Source: Nitrososphaerota archaeon (GTDB lineage: Archaea; Thermoproteota; Nitrososphaeria; Nitrososphaerales; Gagatemarchaeaceae). Taken from it: DNA of 64,000 nt. The position numbers and the translations under genes were made by a program. The notes under the pieces were generated by a model that ran no database searches, had not been told where the DNA came from, and saw only the letters and a list, made by a program, of their open reading frames with translations. Below are positions 32,968-47,992 of the stretch, piece after piece. The stretch spans positions 62,001 through 126,000 of the forward strand of contig JAPCJP010000001.1 of NCBI GenBank assembly GCA_027886885.1, read 5' to 3'. How positions within the stretch are numbered: position 1 is the stretch's first letter; every line of letters begins with the position of its first letter.

Positions 32968-34340
32968 GACGGCGTGACCCGGGAGAGGCTCTCGAGGACC
33001 GCGGCTGCGGTCCTTATGCCGCGGAGGAAGTTTTCCACCTTCAGATTCTCGTTTGGCCCGTGGTTCCCCTCGTCGATGTTCGCGTAGGGAACGATTATCG
33101 ATGGCACGCCAAGCTCCCGGGTGAACGCCGAGTCGGGAAGCGTGGCGCCGAGGGACGGATAGATCACCGGTTCCATCTTCGTCGCGTCCTTCACAGCGGA
33201 CGCGATTGGCGCCGCGAAGGGGCTATCGAGGCTGGTCCGGGACGGGAGGGATGAGCTCATCTTCGTGATCAGAACGCCTGGCGAGTGTAGGCGAACGTGC
33301 CTCACGAGCTTCCTGTAGATGTCCTCCGGGTCCTGGTCGGGTACGAGGCGCATGTCCATCTTCACGGAGGCGCTCGCTGGGATCACGGTCTTCGACCCCT
33401 TTCCGGTGTAGCCGCCATAGATGCCGCAGATGTTCAAGGTAGGTTCAGCCATCAGCTTTTCGTAGAAGCGCTGCCCGGCGGGTAGCTGGGAGGGTTTCAG
33501 GCCGAGGCTTGCGGCTACGGAAGCCCGGTTCAGAGGTATCCTTGCGAAGGCCGCCTTATCAGACCTGGTGGGTCTCTTCACGTCGTCATAGAACCCCTTT
33601 ATCGCGACCCTACCGTTCCTGTCTCTCATGCCCTCGAGCAGCTTCACCAGGTCCCAGGCCGGGTTGGGGACCGGTCCGCCCCAGTTCCCCGAGTGCAGGT
33701 CCCTCTTGGCCCCTCTCGCCGTCAGCTCCACGTAGAGTAGACCCCTGACGCCGAACACGAGCATCGGCCTCCCGCTCTCGTGGACTGGCCCGTCAGAGGT
33801 ATAGACCAAGTCCGCCTTCAGAAGGTCCTTGTGGGTCTTCACGAAGCCTTCCAGGTTCGGCGACCCGTTCTCCTCCTCTCCTTCGAAGATGCACTTGACG
33901 TTGACCGGAAGCTCGCCTCCCCTGAAATCCTTCAGGGCTTTGATGCCCATGAGCTGGGCGTAGAGCTGGCCCTTGTTGTCCCCCGCGCCCCTGGCATAGA
34001 TCCTGCCTTCACGGATCGTGGGCTTGAAGGGTTCGCTCACCCAGGCGTCAAGGGGCTCGACGGGCTGGACGTCATAGTGGCCATAGATGAGGACGGTCGG
34101 CCTGTTTCTCGCGTTGCTCGAGATCTCTCCGAAGATGAAGGGATGGCCAGCGCTCTGGATCACCTGCGTCCTGAAGCCGATCTCTTCCATCCTCCGCTGA
34201 AGGAGCGAGCTCATCTCCTTGATGCCGATTCCGAGCGTGCTTATGGAGGGCTGTGATAGCATCTCGAAGAGACCTTCGAGGTACTCGTCCAAGTTCGCAT
34301 CGATGCGCGCATACACTTCCTCTAGTCCCAGGGAACGCAA
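32964..34340 (-). CDS. M20-family metallopeptidase (CNDP/desuccinylase-like)
   Basis: The 458-residue di-zinc hydrolase has all M20 ligands and catalytic residues: His88 and Asp90 in GHYDVQP, bridging Asp121 in GAGDNKG, general base Glu155-Glu156 in FEGEEENGS, Asp183 in TSDGP, and the dimerisation-domain His in RDLHSGNWGG. It could be a dipeptidase. Beside an NSAR-like racemase and a GNAT enzyme it could instead be an L-specific desuccinylase/deacylase. The start is TTG 34340, 33 nt after a TATA-like TTCTTATT on the minus strand (about 34370-34377). Confidence 0.88.
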   Translation of the reverse strand: MRSLGLEEVYARIDANLDEYLEGLFEMLSQPSISTLGIGIKEMSSLLQRRMEEIGFRTQVIQSAGHPFIFGEISSNARNRPTVLIYGHYDVQPVEPLDAWVSEPFKPTIREGRIYARGAGDNKGQLYAQLMGIKALKDFRGGELPVNVKCIFEGEEENGSPNLEGFVKTHKDLLKADLVYTSDGPVHESGRPMLVFGVRGLLYVELTARGAKRDLHSGNWGGPVPNPAWDLVKLLEGMRDRNGRVAIKGFYDDVKRPTRSDKAAFARIPLNRASVAASLGLKPSQLPAGQRFYEKLMAEPTLNICGIYGGYTGKGSKTVIPASASVKMDMRLVPDQDPEDIYRKLVRHVRLHSPGVLITKMSSSLPSRTSLDSPFAAPIASAVKDATKMEPVIYPSLGATLPDSAFTRELGVPSIIVPYANIDEGNHGPNENLKVENFLRGIRTAAAVLESLSRVTPS

Positions 34341-41178: not shown

Positions 41179-42423
41179 CTAGGTCTTCTGGAAGACGAAG
41201 AGGGTCTGGTCCCCGAAGAGATTGAAGGGGAAGCTAGCGGCCGCTGCGGTCTCGGTCCTCTCCAGGATGGAGAGCACCCTCCTCGCCCGGAAGTAGATGT
41301 CGCTCAGGTAGGCAGGAGGGAGGATGGCCGGCAGGCCCATGATCCTCTTTGCCTTGAAGTGCGGCCTGAAGAACCTGGCGAACTCCGACGGCCGATAGTA
41401 GTAGGAGGGTATGTCGCGCCCTCCCACCGAGACCATAATCGGCTGCTTCTTGCGCGGCGCAAGTTTGTCCATCTGGAGCACGAGGCCGTGCGCCAGCGCC
41501 TCCGAAAGGCAGAACGAGTTCCTTATCGAACAGACAAAGTAACCGCCGGGGGAGATGACCTTGGAGAGCTCCGCCGGGACCTCCCGGATTCCGGGTTCGC
41601 AGTTGAGCGCGCCGTTAAAGGAGTAGGCCACGCGGGTAGAGCCCCCAGGTAGCCGGTCCGCGGTCGAGGATATCCTGCTCGCACCAACCTGCATCGTCTG
41701 TATCTTCGAGTGGAGCCTGAGGGCATCGACCTTCCGCTCGAGAAGGGCGATCATCTCTGGGGAGATGTCCGTCGCGAGGATGCCTCTGACGGTCCTCGCG
41801 ATCTGGATCGCCTCGCTACCAGTCCCACAGCCTATTTCAAGGAGGAAGTCCTCCTTCTTCGTCACCGCCCGCAGCTCCCCTATGGACCTCTCCCTGATCC
41901 ACGAATTGATGAAGTTCCGTCTAATGGTGAAATCGTACTCTTCGGAGGCCGAGTCGAAAGCCTCGGCGACGGTCTGATAGTAATCGGTCTTCGCTTCCCG
42001 CCAGTCTTGGAGCGTCGTCTTGACGTGCGCTTCCCCGCCCGCAGCTCCCCTTCGGGATGGAGCTCCACTCGGCACGATCTTCGTGCAGACCTCTGCCTTC
42101 GAGTACCACTCTTCGGTGAGGCGTCGACCATACTTACGCGCGAAGAGGTCCAGGGCGTGGGAACGCTCGCCCGACGCGGCCCTTGAGACCGAGCATTCCC
42201 ACGACAGTTCCCCGATCCTAACTTTGACGCTACCTTGCGCGAGGGAGTTCAGCACCCAATCGCTTCTCGCTTTCCCGGCCAGGAGGAAGAACGCTCCGTC
42301 GTCGAAGACGAACCTTGTGACGACCACGTGGGGGAGTCCGGTCGACCTTCCCTTGGTGACCAGTTTTACAAGACCGGCGGAGGGCGGAATAGAAACCCCC
42401 GATTGGGGTTCCAGCGAGGTCAC
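41179..42423 (-). CDS. Fusion of a deazaflavin nitroreductase-like split barrel with a class I SAM methyltransferase
   Basis: This 414-residue protein has two domains in one frame. Residues about 15-130 resemble the Ddn/DUF385 F420-binding split barrel: KLVTKGRSTGLPHVVVTRFV, FFLLAGKARSDWVLNSL and a C-terminal RKYGRRLTEEWY helix. Residues about 150-414 form a Rossmann methyltransferase with LLEIGCGTGSEAIQIA (motif I), ATDISPEM and YFVCSIRNSF. The start is GTG 42423, overlapping the upstream gene in GTGA. Substrates are unknown; the neighbours are glycosyltransferases, so modification of a lipid or glycan is a fair guess. Confidence 0.75.
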   Translation of the reverse strand: MTSLEPQSGVSIPPSAGLVKLVTKGRSTGLPHVVVTRFVFDDGAFFLLAGKARSDWVLNSLAQGSVKVRIGELSWECSVSRAASGERSHALDLFARKYGRRLTEEWYSKAEVCTKIVPSGAPSRRGAAGGEAHVKTTLQDWREAKTDYYQTVAEAFDSASEEYDFTIRRNFINSWIRERSIGELRAVTKKEDFLLEIGCGTGSEAIQIARTVRGILATDISPEMIALLERKVDALRLHSKIQTMQVGASRISSTADRLPGGSTRVAYSFNGALNCEPGIREVPAELSKVISPGGYFVCSIRNSFCLSEALAHGLVLQMDKLAPRKKQPIMVSVGGRDIPSYYYRPSEFARFFRPHFKAKRIMGLPAILPPAYLSDIYFRARRVLSILERTETAAAASFPFNLFGDQTLFVFQKT

Positions 42424-43445
42424 GCCCTTTCCCCGCTGCGGGCAGGGAGTGGACCATCATACATCCTTCTCAGTCGTCTGTACCTGTTCGACTCGTAGAC
42501 GCATCGGTCCTTACCTATGTCTGCTCTGAAGACCGCTGAAATGTTGCCCACCCTCCTATATTTGCCGTTCAGGAAGTACGCCTTGAGCTTGATGTAGGAG
42601 CCCACCGTGTAGAAGAGAAATGAGTTTGCGGCGGCGCGCAATCCTCCTCTCCTCCTCGGCCCTGCCCCCTGTGGCTCGGTCGCCACGGCCTCACCCGCTC
42701 TCTTCGAGTACAGGGTTGGGAAGTACGCCCCCATCCATGGCGACTCTCTGAGGAGCCTCCCGTAGAAGCCCTGGCCGTGGACGACCCGCGCCATCAGCGC
42801 GTCTCTGGCGAAAAGGCCTCCCTCCTTCCTTGCAAAGTCATCGCGCACTCTCTCCTCTTCGACGACATAGCTGAAGCAGAAGGGCGCAGTCCGCCTCCTC
42901 AGCAGCCGGAAAGCGCGGGCGAGAAGGAGGGACCTCAACATGAACAGCCACATGGAGTCCTTGTTGGTGACGCAAAAAAGGTCGACGTCGTCGGCGGGTC
43001 CCGCGCGGTCGTAGGAGTTTCCGCCGCTCACGGCCAGCAGCCTCACCTCGCCGTGTACGCAAAGCCGAGCGAAATCGACGGCCTGTGCGATGTTCCATGC
43101 GGACCTCGCCCTGCTCCAATTTGCCCTCTCGACCGCGCCCTCGACCCCTGACGACCCCCAATCCTTCTCGACGATCCAGCCTGCCTCGAGAGAGTACCTG
43201 GAACTGAGCGTGGGATTTGTGCCCCACGCGACCTGGAGCTCCTCCTCGTTGGTTGGCATCGAGGTCGCGTCTATGAGTTCGGAGAGGTTCAGTACGCTCC
43301 CGTTGTGCTTGGCGATCTGGCAGAGGGTGGAAATCTGAGCCTCTTCGCTCGCCCCTATGACGAAGCGTCTGGGATCATCGATGCCGCCGTCCCCTCCCGA
43401 GGCCCCCCAGGCGCTCATCTCTCGTCGTTCCTGTAGCGCTTCCAT
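42420..43445 (-). CDS. Nucleotidyltransferase-fold protein, unknown substrate
   Basis: The 341-residue protein contains a degenerate nucleotidyltransferase signature, LAVSGGNSYDRAGPADDVDLFCVT (about residues 138-161; Gly-Gly then Asp-x-Asp), typical of the pol-beta-like minimal NTase fold. The N-terminal 90 residues may be a winged-helix-like region, and the C-terminal part is basic. A hydrophobic stretch (MWLFMLRSLLLARAF) follows the motif. It overlaps the GT2 gene upstream by 31 nt and the fusion gene downstream by 4 nt, so all belong to one transcript. The catalytic activity is an inference from one motif. Confidence 0.6.
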   Translation of the reverse strand: MEALQERREMSAWGASGGDGGIDDPRRFVIGASEEAQISTLCQIAKHNGSVLNLSELIDATSMPTNEEELQVAWGTNPTLSSRYSLEAGWIVEKDWGSSGVEGAVERANWSRARSAWNIAQAVDFARLCVHGEVRLLAVSGGNSYDRAGPADDVDLFCVTNKDSMWLFMLRSLLLARAFRLLRRRTAPFCFSYVVEEERVRDDFARKEGGLFARDALMARVVHGQGFYGRLLRESPWMGAYFPTLYSKRAGEAVATEPQGAGPRRRGGLRAAANSFLFYTVGSYIKLKAYFLNGKYRRVGNISAVFRADIGKDRCVYESNRYRRLRRMYDGPLPARSGERA

Positions 43446-44377
43446 ACGACGTGCCGCTCCGTTGGCGCGAGCCTGTCGCCCATGGCGAGGAGACCGGCCA
43501 TGATCTCCGCTATTGCTGCCACCGGCACCACCAGGATCCTGCTCGGCTTGGCAGCCATGACCTTCCCGAGTATCGAGACGGCGAGGGCTGGATTTAGCAA
43601 GAGCAGGGACTCAAGCGTGACCGGGAGGGTCCCAAGTTTCTTCCAGACCTGGGCGTGCCCGAAGAGTATCCGCCTCCTTTGTTCGACGAGGTGGAAAATC
43701 CGCGAGGGAACCTCTATCTCGACCTTCGCTTCCTCGGAGAAGAGGATGCGGTAGCCCTTCGATGAAGCGTGACCACCGATGTATGCCCCGTCGTTAACCA
43801 CGTCGTAGGGGAGGGACACGAGGGCCTCTGAACGAACCGCTACAAGCTCGTCACTTGCATGGTTGCTCTTCCCAAGGTGATTCAGCGTGAGGGCCGAGGC
43901 GTTGTGGATCGCCCACAGCAACTCGACGACGCGGGAGTTCAAGTCGCCCGAGGGTCTGAATACGGGGGACGCGGAAACAGCTCCGACCCTGCGGTCTGAG
44001 GCGACCTTTAGCATCAGAGCGCTCAGAGCTCCGGGCAGAGGCATCGCGTCAGCATTGACGAAAGCGACATAGGACCCGACCTTGTTCTCGATGATCGAGT
44101 TCACGGCGTCTATCTTCCCTTTCCTCTCGTCCTCGCTTATCACCTTGATTCTTTCGTCCTCAGAGGCGACACTTCTGAGGAAGGCTGAGGTCGCCCCTGA
44201 GGGCGCGCCCGCGGCTATGACTATCCTGCTGAGCTCGAACCCCGGCGGAAGTTTCTCCGTTCTGACGCCTCGGATTAACCTTGCAAGCGTCTGCGGCGAC
44301 TCGCCCGCTGAGCATATGCCGACCGTGAACCTCTCGAGCCCAATGCTCTTCGTCGGGTCGCTCTCGGGAGGACTCAA
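43415..44377 (-). CDS. Family 2 glycosyltransferase
   Basis: The 320-residue protein is a GT-A fold transferase: FTVGICSAGESPQTLARLI at the N-terminus, ERKGKIDAVNSII, the Asp-x-Asp-equivalent FVNADAMPLPGAL, and NDGAYIGGHASSKGYR acceptor region. C-terminal hydrophobic segments (about 265-300) suggest membrane association. The start is TTG 44377. It is the first gene of the cassette GT2, NTase-like, split-barrel/methyltransferase, GT-C. No obvious TATA box was found within 60 nt upstream. Confidence 0.82.
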   Translation of the reverse strand: MSPPESDPTKSIGLERFTVGICSAGESPQTLARLIRGVRTEKLPPGFELSRIVIAAGAPSGATSAFLRSVASEDERIKVISEDERKGKIDAVNSIIENKVGSYVAFVNADAMPLPGALSALMLKVASDRRVGAVSASPVFRPSGDLNSRVVELLWAIHNASALTLNHLGKSNHASDELVAVRSEALVSLPYDVVNDGAYIGGHASSKGYRILFSEEAKVEIEVPSRIFHLVEQRRRILFGHAQVWKKLGTLPVTLESLLLLNPALAVSILGKVMAAKPSRILVVPVAAIAEIMAGLLAMGDRLAPTERHVVWKRYRNDER

Positions 44378-44484
44378 GCGCGACCGCCCCCTGGCCGCCT
44401 AGGAAACCGAACTGGCAAGTCTCCAAACGGCCTCTGGACCGGGAGCGGTCCGAAGTGCATCTACAATCGGTTCACTTGGTCATG

Positions 44485-44500
44485 AGATAAATATATAAAA
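44485..44500 (+). promoter_or_regulatory. Strong TATA box of the blaI-like operon
   Basis: GATAAATATATAAAA includes TATATAAAA (44492-44500), a near-consensus archaeal TATA box. The transcription start expected about 26 nt downstream falls near 44520-44524, immediately after the palindrome. Confidence 0.75.
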
Positions 44501-44520
44501 GCTACTATCATGGTAGTAGC
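44501..44520. promoter_or_regulatory. Palindromic operator (BlaI/MecI-type dyad)
   Basis: The 20-bp dyad has 7-bp perfect arms (GCTACTA at 44501-44507 and TAGTAGC at 44514-44520) around a partly palindromic TCATGG, so 9 of 10 positions pair. Its TACTA-N6-TAGTA core has, as I recall, the same arms and spacing as the staphylococcal mec/bla operator. It starts directly after the TATA box, so a bound repressor would block transcription factor or polymerase access. Confidence 0.75.
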
Positions 44521-44548
44521 ATAGGGGATTTGACTCGAAGGACCTGGA

Positions 44549-44989
44549 TTGCCTAGGCGGGACGGGAGTGCGGAGCCATTGACTGGCAATCAGCCCAAGA
44601 AAAAAGGGTTCGAGATAGGCGAATTGGAAGCCGAGATCCTCGGCCTCCTCAATAGCATGGAGAATGCCACCGCAGGTGACATAGCGGAGAAGATGCAGTC
44701 GAGCAGGACGATTGCCTACACGACCGTGAGCACCACGCTAGACCGGCTCTACAAGAAAGGCCTACTGAGCAGGACGACCACTGCGGGCAAGACCGGTCCA
44801 AAGTACGTCTACGAGGTCGCGACCCATAGGGGAATCGAGAAGCAGCTCGTGGACGCGGCCGTGGACCGGCTCGTGGATGCCTTTGGACCATCGGTGACCT
44901 CGACCATCTACGACCGGCTGAGCGAGATCTCGCCCGCAGAGCTCGAGAGGATCAGGGTCGCGATTGCGAAGAAGAGGGAGAATCAATGA
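44549..44989 (+). CDS. BlaI/MecI/CopY-family winged-helix repressor
   Basis: The 146-residue protein matches the penicillinase-repressor family: IGELEAEILGLLNSMENATAGDIAEKM, then the recognition helix region RTIAYTTVSTTLDRLYKKGLL and wing SRTTTAGKTGPKYVYEV, followed by a helical dimerisation domain with VDRLVDAFG. An N-terminal basic extension of about 20 residues is extra. The start is TTG 44549, about 25 nt after the palindrome. Its TGA overlaps the protease gene (ATGA). By analogy it binds the adjacent dyad and represses this operon. Confidence 0.9.
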   Translation: MPRRDGSAEPLTGNQPKKKGFEIGELEAEILGLLNSMENATAGDIAEKMQSSRTIAYTTVSTTLDRLYKKGLLSRTTTAGKTGPKYVYEVATHRGIEKQLVDAAVDRLVDAFGPSVTSTIYDRLSEISPAELERIRVAIAKKRENQ

Positions 44990-45915
44990 GCCTTCTTAGC
45001 ATGGCGGCGATGTACTTCACCTCCCGGCTGGTGCTGCTAGTGCTCGTCTCGCTCTACGCCGCGGTGGCCGGCTTGTTCCTCGCTTTCAGGGCCAATCCGC
45101 AGAACCCGAGGCTCCGGTCGAAGCTCCTTCTAACCGTCTTCTCCCTGGCCACTGCCTCATGGATATTCATCGGGTCGAGCCTGGTCCTCTGCAAGGTATT
45201 CGAGGGAATGTACTACTACCACGGAGCGGAGGCCGTCACGATGGTTCTGGGAGGGAGCCTCTTCGCCACCCTCGTCATCGGAGTCCCTGTCTCACTCTTC
45301 ATGGGGACCAGGGTCCCATCTCTCGTCCTCAGGCGCCTGGAGAAGCAACTCTCGGAGCCCCACGAATCGACCTCAGTCCTCATGAATAGGATGGTGTCTG
45401 TTCTGGGGCTAGGCGAGGTCCACCTATACCGTTACTCGGGCTCGGTCCCGTTCGCGTTCTCGTTGGGAGGAAAGCGGAACGTGGTCGTGATATCAGGAGG
45501 TTTGGAGGAGAACCTAGACAGGGACGAACTTGAGACTGTGCTGACCCACGAGCTGGGCCACCTCAAGAACATGGACACCCTGTTGAACGCGCTGATAACC
45601 GTCTACCGGAGGCTCTTGTTCTTCGACCCGTTGATTCGTTTCCTCGAAGGGATCATCCACAAAGAGAGGGAGTTCGCATGCGACGATATCTCGGCTAGGA
45701 CGACGAGGAAGCCTTTGGCCCTCGCCTCGGCCCTGATCAAGATCCACTCCGCCGCAGCGGACGCGAGGCCTCCGGGAGCCTTCCTCGCAGGTAACATCGG
45801 ACTACACGGCAATCGGGCCCTCAAGGAGAGGATAGACCGGCTATTGCGCATCTCGGAGGAGCTCGACCAGGCACATCATGGAAGTCTGTCCCAGCGGAAT
45901 TCGGAGGCGTCCTAG
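44986..45915 (+). CDS. Membrane metalloprotease of the M48/M56 (BlaR1/HtpX-like) type
   Basis: The 309-residue protein has three or four N-terminal transmembrane helices (about 10-30, 45-68, 85-110) and a cytoplasmic gluzincin domain with His188-Glu-Leu-Gly-His192 and the third ligand Glu in the EREFACDD segment (about 228-234). FAFSLGGKRNVVVISGG is a typical M48/M56 strand. No extracellular penicillin-binding sensor domain follows, unlike bacterial BlaR1. Pairing with a BlaI-type repressor suggests that this protease cleaves the repressor on a signal. That is inference from bacterial systems. Confidence 0.88.
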   Translation: MSLLSMAAMYFTSRLVLLVLVSLYAAVAGLFLAFRANPQNPRLRSKLLLTVFSLATASWIFIGSSLVLCKVFEGMYYYHGAEAVTMVLGGSLFATLVIGVPVSLFMGTRVPSLVLRRLEKQLSEPHESTSVLMNRMVSVLGLGEVHLYRYSGSVPFAFSLGGKRNVVVISGGLEENLDRDELETVLTHELGHLKNMDTLLNALITVYRRLLFFDPLIRFLEGIIHKEREFACDDISARTTRKPLALASALIKIHSAAADARPPGAFLAGNIGLHGNRALKERIDRLLRISEELDQAHHGSLSQRNSEAS

Positions 45916-47520
45916 ATGGTCTCTCCTATGAAGAGAGCCTTCCTGGCGGGTCTCGCGGCCGGCGGCGCAGCTCTAGTGCTTTCGCTGGTAATCAGATTGA
46001 CGGTGGGCGGCGTCTTTCTGCCCGAGCTCGCGGCGCAGACGCTCTTTACCCTGACCCCCGGTTCAGTTGAGTCTGTGGCCGTCGAGAACCTGAGAGCTCT
46101 CGCCAAGGACTCTGCGTTCGTGGGAGCGGTCATAATGAACGCGGTGCTCTACGGCCTAATCGGCGTCGTGTACTTCAGGTGGAGGGGTCTGTCCGGGACG
46201 GGGACCAGGGCGGAAAAGATCCTGCTCTCCTCATTCTTGGCATATTTCCTGCTCACCATAGTTGGGGTCGCTCTCTTCTTCACCACGCAGCTCCAGTCCT
46301 CCCCGGTGACGCTCCCGGAGCTGGTGGTCACCCTTGTTCCCCCTCAGTTCGTCTTCGGCGGAGTCCTGATCTGGTTGAACGGAGCGACACCCCCGGTCAA
46401 CCCGTCTGACCTCTGTACCGTGCCCGCGGCCAAGGGCAAGAAGAGCAAGAAGGGCAAGATGTACAGTCGGAGAAGGAGGCTCTTCATAAGAAACGCCGTC
46501 GCGGCCGGGGTCGGCGCAGCCATCCTCGCCTATGGTGTGAGCATCCTGCTCAAGCCAGGGCCTCCGAAAGGTCCGGCGACCGCTCCAACCGCATTCCTTT
46601 CCCAGACCGTCACCCCGACCGGCCAGTTCTACCGGGTCGACGTCAACATCTTCCCACCCTCCGTGAACGCCTCTTCCTGGAGCCTCGCGGTCTCCGGCCT
46701 TGTCAGCAACCCAATGACCCTCTCCCTGAGCGACCTGGAGAACATGACGACCGTAGAGCAGTACAACACGCTGGAGTGTGTGAGTAACTTCGTCGCCGGG
46801 AACCTGATCGGGACAGCCCAGTGGACGGGGGTCAAGCTGAAGGATGTCCTCACGAACGCTGGGGTCCAGCCCTCGACACAGTACATCATCTTCAAGGCCG
46901 TGGACGGCTACAGCGTCGGGATCCCCATAGAGAGGGCGATGCAAGACGGAACGCTCCTTGCCTACGAGATGAACGGCGCTCCTCTCGAGACTGAGCACGG
47001 GTACCCTCTGCGCGCGATCGTCCCCGGCCTTTACGGCATGAACAACTGCAAGTGGATAACCAGCATCGAGGCCGTCAATGACACCTACGAAGGATATTGG
47101 CAGCAGAGAGGCTGGGCTGAGGACGCGATGTACCAGACCGGCTCCTCCATAGTGATACCAGGAAACGAGCAGGTCGACAGTGTCTTTGGGATTAGCGGGA
47201 CCACGGCCGTAGATCTCGGCATCGTACCCGTCGCCGGGCTGGCCTTCGCCGGGGACCGGGGCATATCCAAGGTCGAGATTAGCACGGATGGAGGCAATAC
47301 CTGGACGCTCGCTTCGTTGATCGACCCGCTCTCGAACTACACCTGGGTTTTCTGGACTGCTCAATGGAATCCCCCCGCAGCGGGGCAGTACCGTCTGGCC
47401 GTGCGAGCCACCGACGGACAGGGCAATGTCCAGACAGCCCAGATAAACCAACCCTTCCCATCGGGCGCCACAGGCTATGACGTGGTGGACATATCCGTTT
47501 CCGCAACGTCCGCAACGTAA
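45916..47520 (+). CDS. Membrane-anchored sulfite-oxidase-family molybdoenzyme
   Basis: The 534-residue protein starts right after the protease stop. Residues 1-160 form about four transmembrane helices. Then comes a basic twin-arginine-like stretch, SRRRRLFIRNA (about 185-195), and another hydrophobic helix. From about 225 onward it is a sulfite-oxidase/YedY-type Moco domain with the Mo ligand Cys288 in YNTLECVSN and RAIVPGLYGMNNCKWI, followed by an Ig-like Mo-co dimerisation domain with VEISTDGGNTW. It probably oxidises or reduces a sulfur compound outside the cell, with electrons passing through the membrane part. No haem-binding CxxCH motif is present. Confidence 0.88.
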   Translation: MVSPMKRAFLAGLAAGGAALVLSLVIRLTVGGVFLPELAAQTLFTLTPGSVESVAVENLRALAKDSAFVGAVIMNAVLYGLIGVVYFRWRGLSGTGTRAEKILLSSFLAYFLLTIVGVALFFTTQLQSSPVTLPELVVTLVPPQFVFGGVLIWLNGATPPVNPSDLCTVPAAKGKKSKKGKMYSRRRRLFIRNAVAAGVGAAILAYGVSILLKPGPPKGPATAPTAFLSQTVTPTGQFYRVDVNIFPPSVNASSWSLAVSGLVSNPMTLSLSDLENMTTVEQYNTLECVSNFVAGNLIGTAQWTGVKLKDVLTNAGVQPSTQYIIFKAVDGYSVGIPIERAMQDGTLLAYEMNGAPLETEHGYPLRAIVPGLYGMNNCKWITSIEAVNDTYEGYWQQRGWAEDAMYQTGSSIVIPGNEQVDSVFGISGTTAVDLGIVPVAGLAFAGDRGISKVEISTDGGNTWTLASLIDPLSNYTWVFWTAQWNPPAAGQYRLAVRATDGQGNVQTAQINQPFPSGATGYDVVDISVSATSAT

Positions 47521-47554: not shown

Positions 47555-47992
47555 ATGAAACGCCTGGAACCTAACGAGGGAGGGTTGCGGTTCCTCGTCA
47601 ACGTCCAGCTCAAGAGCAGGAACAGGAGATTCCTCAGGCTGCTCTCCGAGGCAGTGGCCAGGATTCCTGGGGACGTCCCGCCGGTCGAGAGCGTGACCAA
47701 GGTGAGGCTGAGGGCCAGGGGCCCCCGTGGCTACGTGGGGCTCGTGACATACTCGGTCGCGGGCGGTCGAAAGGCCAACCAGACCATCGATTTCTACACC
47801 AGCCTCCTCTTCGACCTCTCTCGCAAGGCCGCACTAGGAGTGGTGGTCCACGAGCTCGCCCATGCCTGGCTGAACGAGCACATATCTCCTGAGGAATCAG
47901 AGAGCCGCGAGAGGGATGCGGACAGGACCGCAGCTAGCTGGGGTTTCAAGAAGGAGCTGGAGGCCCTCGAACGGGAAGCGGTAACCCTCTGA
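47555..47992 (+). CDS. Small HExxH metallopeptidase-like protein
   Basis: The 145-residue protein has a zincin-type motif His99-Glu-Leu-Ala-His103 in VVVHELAHAWLNEH, preceded by a beta-strand-rich region. A downstream acidic helix (SPEESESRERDADRTAASWGF) supplies a possible third ligand (Glu or Asp). The size and arrangement are like minigluzincins or SprT-like domains, but I cannot assign a family. It follows the molybdoenzyme by 34 nt and may be in the same transcript. Confidence 0.7.
   Translation: MKRLEPNEGGLRFLVNVQLKSRNRRFLRLLSEAVARIPGDVPPVESVTKVRLRARGPRGYVGLVTYSVAGGRKANQTIDFYTSLLFDLSRKAALGVVVHELAHAWLNEHISPEESESRERDADRTAASWGFKKELEALEREAVTL

Follow-up and report, generated by a model that had tools for sequence, protein, structure and literature searches.

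A BlaI-type repressor, an adjoining M56 protease and a conserved operator point to a probable archaeal envelope switch without a penicillin sensor

In the BlaI-BlaR1 and MecI-MecR1 systems of Staphylococcus aureus and Bacillus licheniformis, a Penicillinase_R repressor is encoded beside a gluzincin protease of family M56 and the pair is controlled through an autoregulatory dyad; the extended mec operator has TACTA and TAGTA arms. BlaR1 cleaves BlaI at N101-F102 (PMC9834060). The BlaI_0696 and BlaI_1845 proteins of Clostridium thermocellum belong to blaI-blaR1 operons under the control of their own BlaI and have small regulons (PMC8457756), whereas BlaI of Mycobacterium tuberculosis has a broader one that includes Rv1303, co-transcribed with the ATP synthase operon (PMC12565901). 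Here we analyse a 64,000-nucleotide window of a Nitrososphaerota archaeon (GCA_027886885.1, contig JAPCJP010000001.1, positions 62,001 to 126,000; genome G000, 2.16 Mb, 73% complete) that shares with the staphylococcal systems an adjacent Penicillinase_R repressor and M56 gluzincin and a dyad with the same arms, and solved structures of those systems provide the best matches to the archaeal proteins. Unlike them, it has an archaeal TATA promoter, a protease of only 309 amino acids (aa) without a penicillin-binding sensor, and predicted targets in relatives that are envelope and redox genes; unlike the C. thermocellum regulons, each of one operon and read as a beta-lactam response, its operator recurs before many genes in relatives. 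We propose that the pair is probably a repressor-protease switch for the archaeal envelope that resembles BlaI-BlaR1 and lacks the penicillin sensor.

On the forward strand of the window, a TATA box (TATATAAAA, 44492-44500) is followed directly by a 20-bp dyad (GCTACTATCATGGTAGTAGC, 44501-44520) in which 9 of 10 positions pair and whose core (TACTATCATGGTAGTA, 44503-44518) has the form TACTA-N6-TAGTA. Three genes follow on the same strand: blaI, encoding a BlaI/MecI-type winged-helix repressor (44579-44989), whose open reading frame (ORF) runs from 44549 to 44989 if counted from the first in-frame TTG, the TTG at 44579 being the likelier start; the gene of an M56 membrane metalloprotease (44986-45915), which overlaps blaI by 4 nt (ATGA); and the gene of a membrane-anchored molybdoenzyme of the sulfite oxidase family (45916-47520), whose ATG abuts the TAG stop codon of M56 with zero gap. 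A first-pass annotation of this stretch had described the TATA box, dyad, genes, overlap and abutment in these terms, and sequence and Pfam matches agree with it to the base.

The dyad represents a specific motif that is conserved at blaI promoters. By itself a dyad of this length carries no significance over 64 kb, since the window holds two 20-bp dyads with at least 9 of 10 pairs against 2.6 expected under a Markov model, and chance was therefore assessed on the specific motif and its conservation. The exact consensus, TACTAY-N4-RTAGTA, is expected by chance in 0.5 copies in the 2.16-Mb genome and about 5e-5 copies in the 201-bp intergenic stretch; G000 has a single copy genome-wide, the one before blaI. 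Among 15 blaI promoters examined, 13 carry the operator at no more than one mismatch (none in G000, G003, G007, G014, G084 and G101; one in G053, G067, G076, G091, G097, L152 and L153, where G and L numbers label genomes and loci of relatives), which suggests an own-promoter palindromic operator as in the BlaI/MecI/CopY family. The chance of such a site in 250 nt is 0.0005 at 60% GC and 0.004 at 42% GC. More degenerate forms stand before blaI in Theionarchaea (two mismatches) and also in a Woesearchaeote. G003 and G007 share the TATA-operator layout of the window, and there two operators flank the TATA box of the blaI promoter; a second operator 5′ of the TATA box was sought in the window and not found (best candidate with 5 mismatches, at 44462). 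In the families labelled f22 and f18 the dyad 5′ of blaI-M56 is one central base longer (TACTAY-N5-RTAGTA; in f22 at L253:354-405, L254:7981-8071 and L255:6343-6396), and several f22 genomes again have two copies bracketing a TATA-like stretch. Given the extra base in f22 relative to Nitrososphaerales, the spacing of the operator seems to depend on the BlaI clade. The window's second dyad with at least 9 of 10 pairs lies at 32995-33014 (AGGACCGCGGCTGCGGTCCT), and there is no further one.

BlaI and M56 are also encoded together across archaea. BlaI of this type occurs in 11 of the 101 genomes nearest to the window, and in 9 of the 10 other BlaI-bearing genomes the M56 gene directly follows blaI (G003, G007, G014, G053, G060, G067, G076, G084 and G097), as it does in G101 and in the loci from groundwater, Theionarchaea and a Woesearchaeote. 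When 84,980 species were scanned, the same lineage was recovered together with a groundwater Thaumarchaeote, two Theionarchaea and one Woesearchaeote, and an HExxH M56-like gene lies beside blaI in 4/4 translated loci (Nitrososphaerales L145, Theionarchaeon L151, L152 and L153). In 300 genomes of the phylum searched with Pfam, full-length BlaI also turned up in further families, and 10/12 loci examined from those families have an ORF for an HExxH membrane protease 3′ of blaI. Pair-bearing relatives with names are uncultured Thaumarchaeota or Nitrososphaerales, and isolate names point to soil for several. The first-pass annotation had claimed a BlaI-like operator and a repressor-protease pair without a beta-lactam sensor, and had stated beforehand that a lack of conserved gene order or dyad in relatives would speak against it; both are conserved, the sensorless pair is seen again in relatives, and the dyad recurs before blaI in relatives, other families and other phyla.

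Profile and structure comparisons place both proteins within the expected families. BlaI matches Pfam Penicillinase_R (PF03965) at 60.9 bits against a cut-off of 22.6, over profile positions 1-114 of 115, and the archaeal BlaI profile matches MecI, BlaI and 2g9w of M. tuberculosis, the best Protein Data Bank (PDB) match. 2g9w is BlaI Rv1846c, whose M56 neighbour is not known to have a penicillin sensor. The protease matches Peptidase_M56 (PF05569) at 62.9 bits (cut-off 31), ahead of M48 (41.5 against 20.3), and has the HExxH...E gluzincin signature, here HELGH, on a transmembrane scaffold; all 12 sequences compared keep HExxH, Glu229 and Asp233, the zinc ligands included. Its AlphaFold model (predicted local distance difference test 86, predicted template modelling score 0.78) combines three hydrophobic helices, all of them long, with a zinc domain at the C-terminus, and all four PDB matches of the model with E < 0.001 are S. 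aureus BlaR1, with a modest global fit (query-length TM-score 0.36-0.44). Nothing follows the catalytic domain, the protein's Pfam matches are to M56 and M48 only, and it has no penicillin-binding sensor domain. The loops after the first and third transmembrane helices are basic and the loop between the second and third is neutral, charges that fit a cytoplasmic catalytic domain. This predicted topology places Cys69 and Tyr76 at the outer end of the second helix; Cys69 is near-invariant, absent only in the Theionarchaeal sequence, and Tyr76 is absent only in L152. As a speculation, these two residues of the outer loop are candidate sensor residues.

In BlaI-bearing genomes the dyad is a genome-wide operator. 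Four such genomes of the window's own family hold 10 exact sites against 0 exact sites of the reversed motif, and genome scans of the BlaI-free congeners G001, G002 and G005 found zero exact motif sites. Across family f9 and Theionarchaeal genomes the motif outnumbers the reversed control in most, not all, cases (G084, 7 vs. 0; G076, 4 vs. 0; G091, 1 vs. 4). When the 35 exact sites not directly before blaI are compared with 16 reversed-motif control sites, fewer lie inside predicted genes (6/35 vs. 9/16, P = 0.008) and more precede an ORF with a hydrophobic N-terminus (18/35 vs. 2/16, P = 0.012), where the P-values are indicative only, because sites from related genomes are not independent, and were calculated on uncorrected counts whose in-gene class includes three sites (two in G003:C24, one in G014:C51) that fall in apparently spurious antisense ORFs. 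In G007 the one-mismatch sites resemble chance, as do several of those in G014.

Judged from the genes behind these sites, the conserved regulon in relatives appears to consist mainly of secreted and membrane proteins together with a cassette of surface-glycosylation type. Cupredoxin genes stand behind an operator in G007, divergent from blaI, and behind a one-mismatch operator in G014. Secreted NHL/PQQ-like beta-propellers are represented in G003 C18 (divergent from blaI, with a C-terminal copper domain), G097 C37 and G084 C234, and G003 C24 has two operators before a beta-propeller recognised by sequence likeness without a Pfam hit; further predicted secreted proteins are found in G076, G084, G097, G101 and Theionarchaea. 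The operator also precedes genes for a ferritin-like protein with a twin-arginine-like N-terminus (G014), a phosphoesterase and a peroxiredoxin (both G067), a pro-kumamolisin-type protease (G097), MsrA (G084), a molybdoenzyme operon in a distant relative (G076 C81), nucleotidyltransferase-like and methyltransferase genes (G003 C39), a 181-aa protein with a GT2 cassette (G076 C49) and a 452-aa protein with a methyltransferase (G084 C261). Three f22 genomes have the longer-spaced operator before both blaI and the gene of an HtrA-type trypsin/PDZ protease beside M56; a similar gene adjoins M56 in G084, where it is listed by neighbourhood, not by operator. No beta-lactamase or penicillin-binding protein (PBP2a) genes were found among the targets scanned. 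Separately, a beta-propeller-type secreted family (NNRVIEVNP...) recurrently has an operator 5′ of its gene (L106, L112, L118 and L013), and HtrA-type trypsin/PDZ genes lie beside BlaI-M56 in two distant families (L018:3129-4337, + strand; L253, L254 and L255).

By analogy with BlaI-BlaR1, we infer that BlaI is the protein that binds the dyad, that it represses, and that M56 cleaves it. A BlaI dimer would bind TACTAY-N4-RTAGTA beside the TATA box and keep the archaeal transcription complex from assembling, both at the blaI operon and at promoters elsewhere in the genome. M56 would have three membrane-spanning helices and a cytoplasmic catalytic domain, an event at the outer face of the membrane would activate it, and active M56 would cleave BlaI and so release the regulon. 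In G000 the genes driven by the operator would be blaI, M56 and the molybdoenzyme gene, and the GT2 cassette on the divergent side may come under its influence as well. Our best guesses for the signal, which are speculative, are damage to envelope proteins (compare HtrA) or redox or copper stress (compare MsrA, peroxiredoxin and the cupredoxins).

The first-pass annotation had instead tied the system to the molybdoenzyme, with BlaI-M56 sensing sulfur or oxidant stress, a proposal that we now consider quite improbable. The enzyme belongs to the sulfite oxidase superfamily (Oxidored_molyb, PF00174, at 165.4 bits where the cut-off is 24; PF03404, the domain for Mo-co dimerisation, is also present), has five transmembrane-like segments and aligns its Mo-ligand Cys288 to the cysteine of SorA (2blf). 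Its gene in G000 shows no TATA-like promoter of its own and begins directly after the M56 stop codon, which presumably makes expression of the enzyme dependent on the BlaI promoter; such a dedicated role would also suit the restriction of the exact motif to this one place in G000 and the operator before the molybdoenzyme operon of G076. However, a close orthologue (55-62% identity) is present in 7/7 other same-genus genomes searched, BlaI-free ones included, where its gene has TATA-like stretches before it and lacks an operator, and the operator elsewhere serves many non-Mo genes. On those relatives' contigs that reach far enough, the molybdoenzyme gene is divergent from a methyltransferase-nucleotidyltransferase-GT2 cassette with no blaI-M56 between them, and is followed by an S9 peptidase gene and often also by a 145-aa gene. 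In G000, blaI-M56 sits between the GT2 and molybdoenzyme genes and, by this comparison of gene order, has been inserted there. The G000 cassette lies on the minus strand and comprises, from its first gene to its third, a GT2 glycosyltransferase divergent from blaI (43415-44377, PF00535), a nucleotidyltransferase-like protein (42420-43445), whose G003 orthologue is preceded by an operator, and a methyltransferase with a weak F420H2-quinone-reductase-like N-terminal match (41179-42423, PF13649), the latter two being kept in the cassette. In family f9, GT2 and nucleotidyltransferase-like genes, in part also the methyltransferase gene, follow blaI-M56 consecutively (G053 and G097). This order, together with the blaI-free orthologues of the molybdoenzyme, makes the cassette, and not the molybdoenzyme, the recurring partner. 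The molybdoenzyme does not hold up as the conserved output, G076 being an exception, and the proposed envelope and redox theme is seen again among the operator-preceded genes of relatives.

A rival account makes BlaI a CopY-like repressor responsive to a ligand or metal and M56 a co-transcribed HtpX-type quality-control protease that does not cleave BlaI. Cupredoxin genes are often targets or neighbours, M56 also exceeds the M48 cut-off and so could be a general quality-control protease, its best NCBIfam matches are HtpX models, and the site at which S. aureus BlaI is cut, N101-F102, shows no clear conservation (in MecI it aligns to archaeal residues 109-110, beside an invariant Tyr111, and the residues differ). 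We nonetheless regard this account as unlikely: BlaI and M56 stay together across archaeal phyla, BlaR1 heads the structure matches, the best HtpX model reaches 51 bits against 355 and the CopY/TcrY equivalog model 30.1 against 121.95, and the alignment of BlaI with 10 relatives shows no Cys-rich metal site. More generally, the NCBIfam cut-offs for BlaI, MecI, CopY, BlaR1 (42 bits vs. 400), HtpX, SorA (160.5 vs. 600), SorT (122.1 vs. 570) and SoxC (152.4 vs. 420) are all missed, which makes the three proteins family members and not named orthologues. The dyad could also be the site of another regulator or a promoter element that lies near blaI incidentally, since another archaeal regulator, of MarR or Lrs14 type, might recognise a dyad of this sort and BlaI scores weakly on those models; the enrichment of the exact motif in own-family BlaI-bearing genomes, its absence from BlaI-free congeners, its place before blaI across families and phyla, and the way its spacing varies from one BlaI clade to another make this highly improbable. 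Besides the M48 match, the lack of clear conservation at the cleavage site and the non-independence of the sites, further observations weigh against a repressor-protease switch for the envelope: G060 has the BlaI-M56 pair and no recognisable operator at its blaI promoter, G091 has BlaI without an adjacent M56, the motif is not above the reversed control in G053, G060 and G091, certain sites lie within genes or 5′ of unremarkable genes, and beyond the envelope the targets share no common biochemical theme.

Some neighbouring genes have features of their own. The nucleotidyltransferase-like protein (42420-43445, minus strand) has no Pfam or PDB match and carries the pattern SVSGGNSYDRAGPADDVDLF, and the methyltransferase gene (41179-42423, minus strand) appears to be a fusion of an F420H2-quinone-reductase-like domain (PF04075, just below cut-off) and an S-adenosylmethionine-dependent methyltransferase. 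Downstream of the molybdoenzyme gene, 47555-47992 (plus strand) encodes a 145-aa protein with the HExxH-type stretch VVHELAHAW, kept after the molybdoenzyme gene in G001, G005 and G006; it has no Pfam or PDB relative and is possibly a small soluble metalloprotease.

Among described systems, the profile match to 2g9w and the broader regulon liken the archaeal system to BlaI of M. tuberculosis, which differs in its bacterial promoter context and its targets. The bacterial envelope-stress regulons SigmaE-DegP and CpxAR are likened to it by the secreted targets and by the operator-bearing HtrA-type PDZ protease gene of f22, but the archaeal system would use a repressor cut in one step by a membrane metalloprotease in place of a sigma factor cascade or a two-component system, and the likeness is a functional analogy only. 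In the open-access literature searched, which misses most subscription journals, we found no description of archaeal BlaI/M56 systems, their regulon, operator or envelope targets, and no archaeal envelope-stress pathway that works by repressor proteolysis. The protein families themselves are already known. We suggest tentatively, as a possibility short of an even case, that this is a widespread, multi-phylum archaeal envelope-stress system in which one-step cutting of the DNA-binding repressor by the membrane metalloprotease frees secreted, redox-repair and surface-glycan genes that are controlled by TACTA/TAGTA operators adjacent to or flanking the TATA box. If so, the general envelope switch would be the older system and BlaR1, in sensing beta-lactams, one bacterial specialisation of it, and the machinery behind inducible beta-lactam resistance may have a broader, non-antibiotic role. 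Signalling from the cell surface to promoters is poorly known in archaea, and the system described here would supply a defined repressor, protease, operator and list of targets, offering points of entry to soil archaea that have not been cultured and about whose physiology there are otherwise only guesses from genome sequence.

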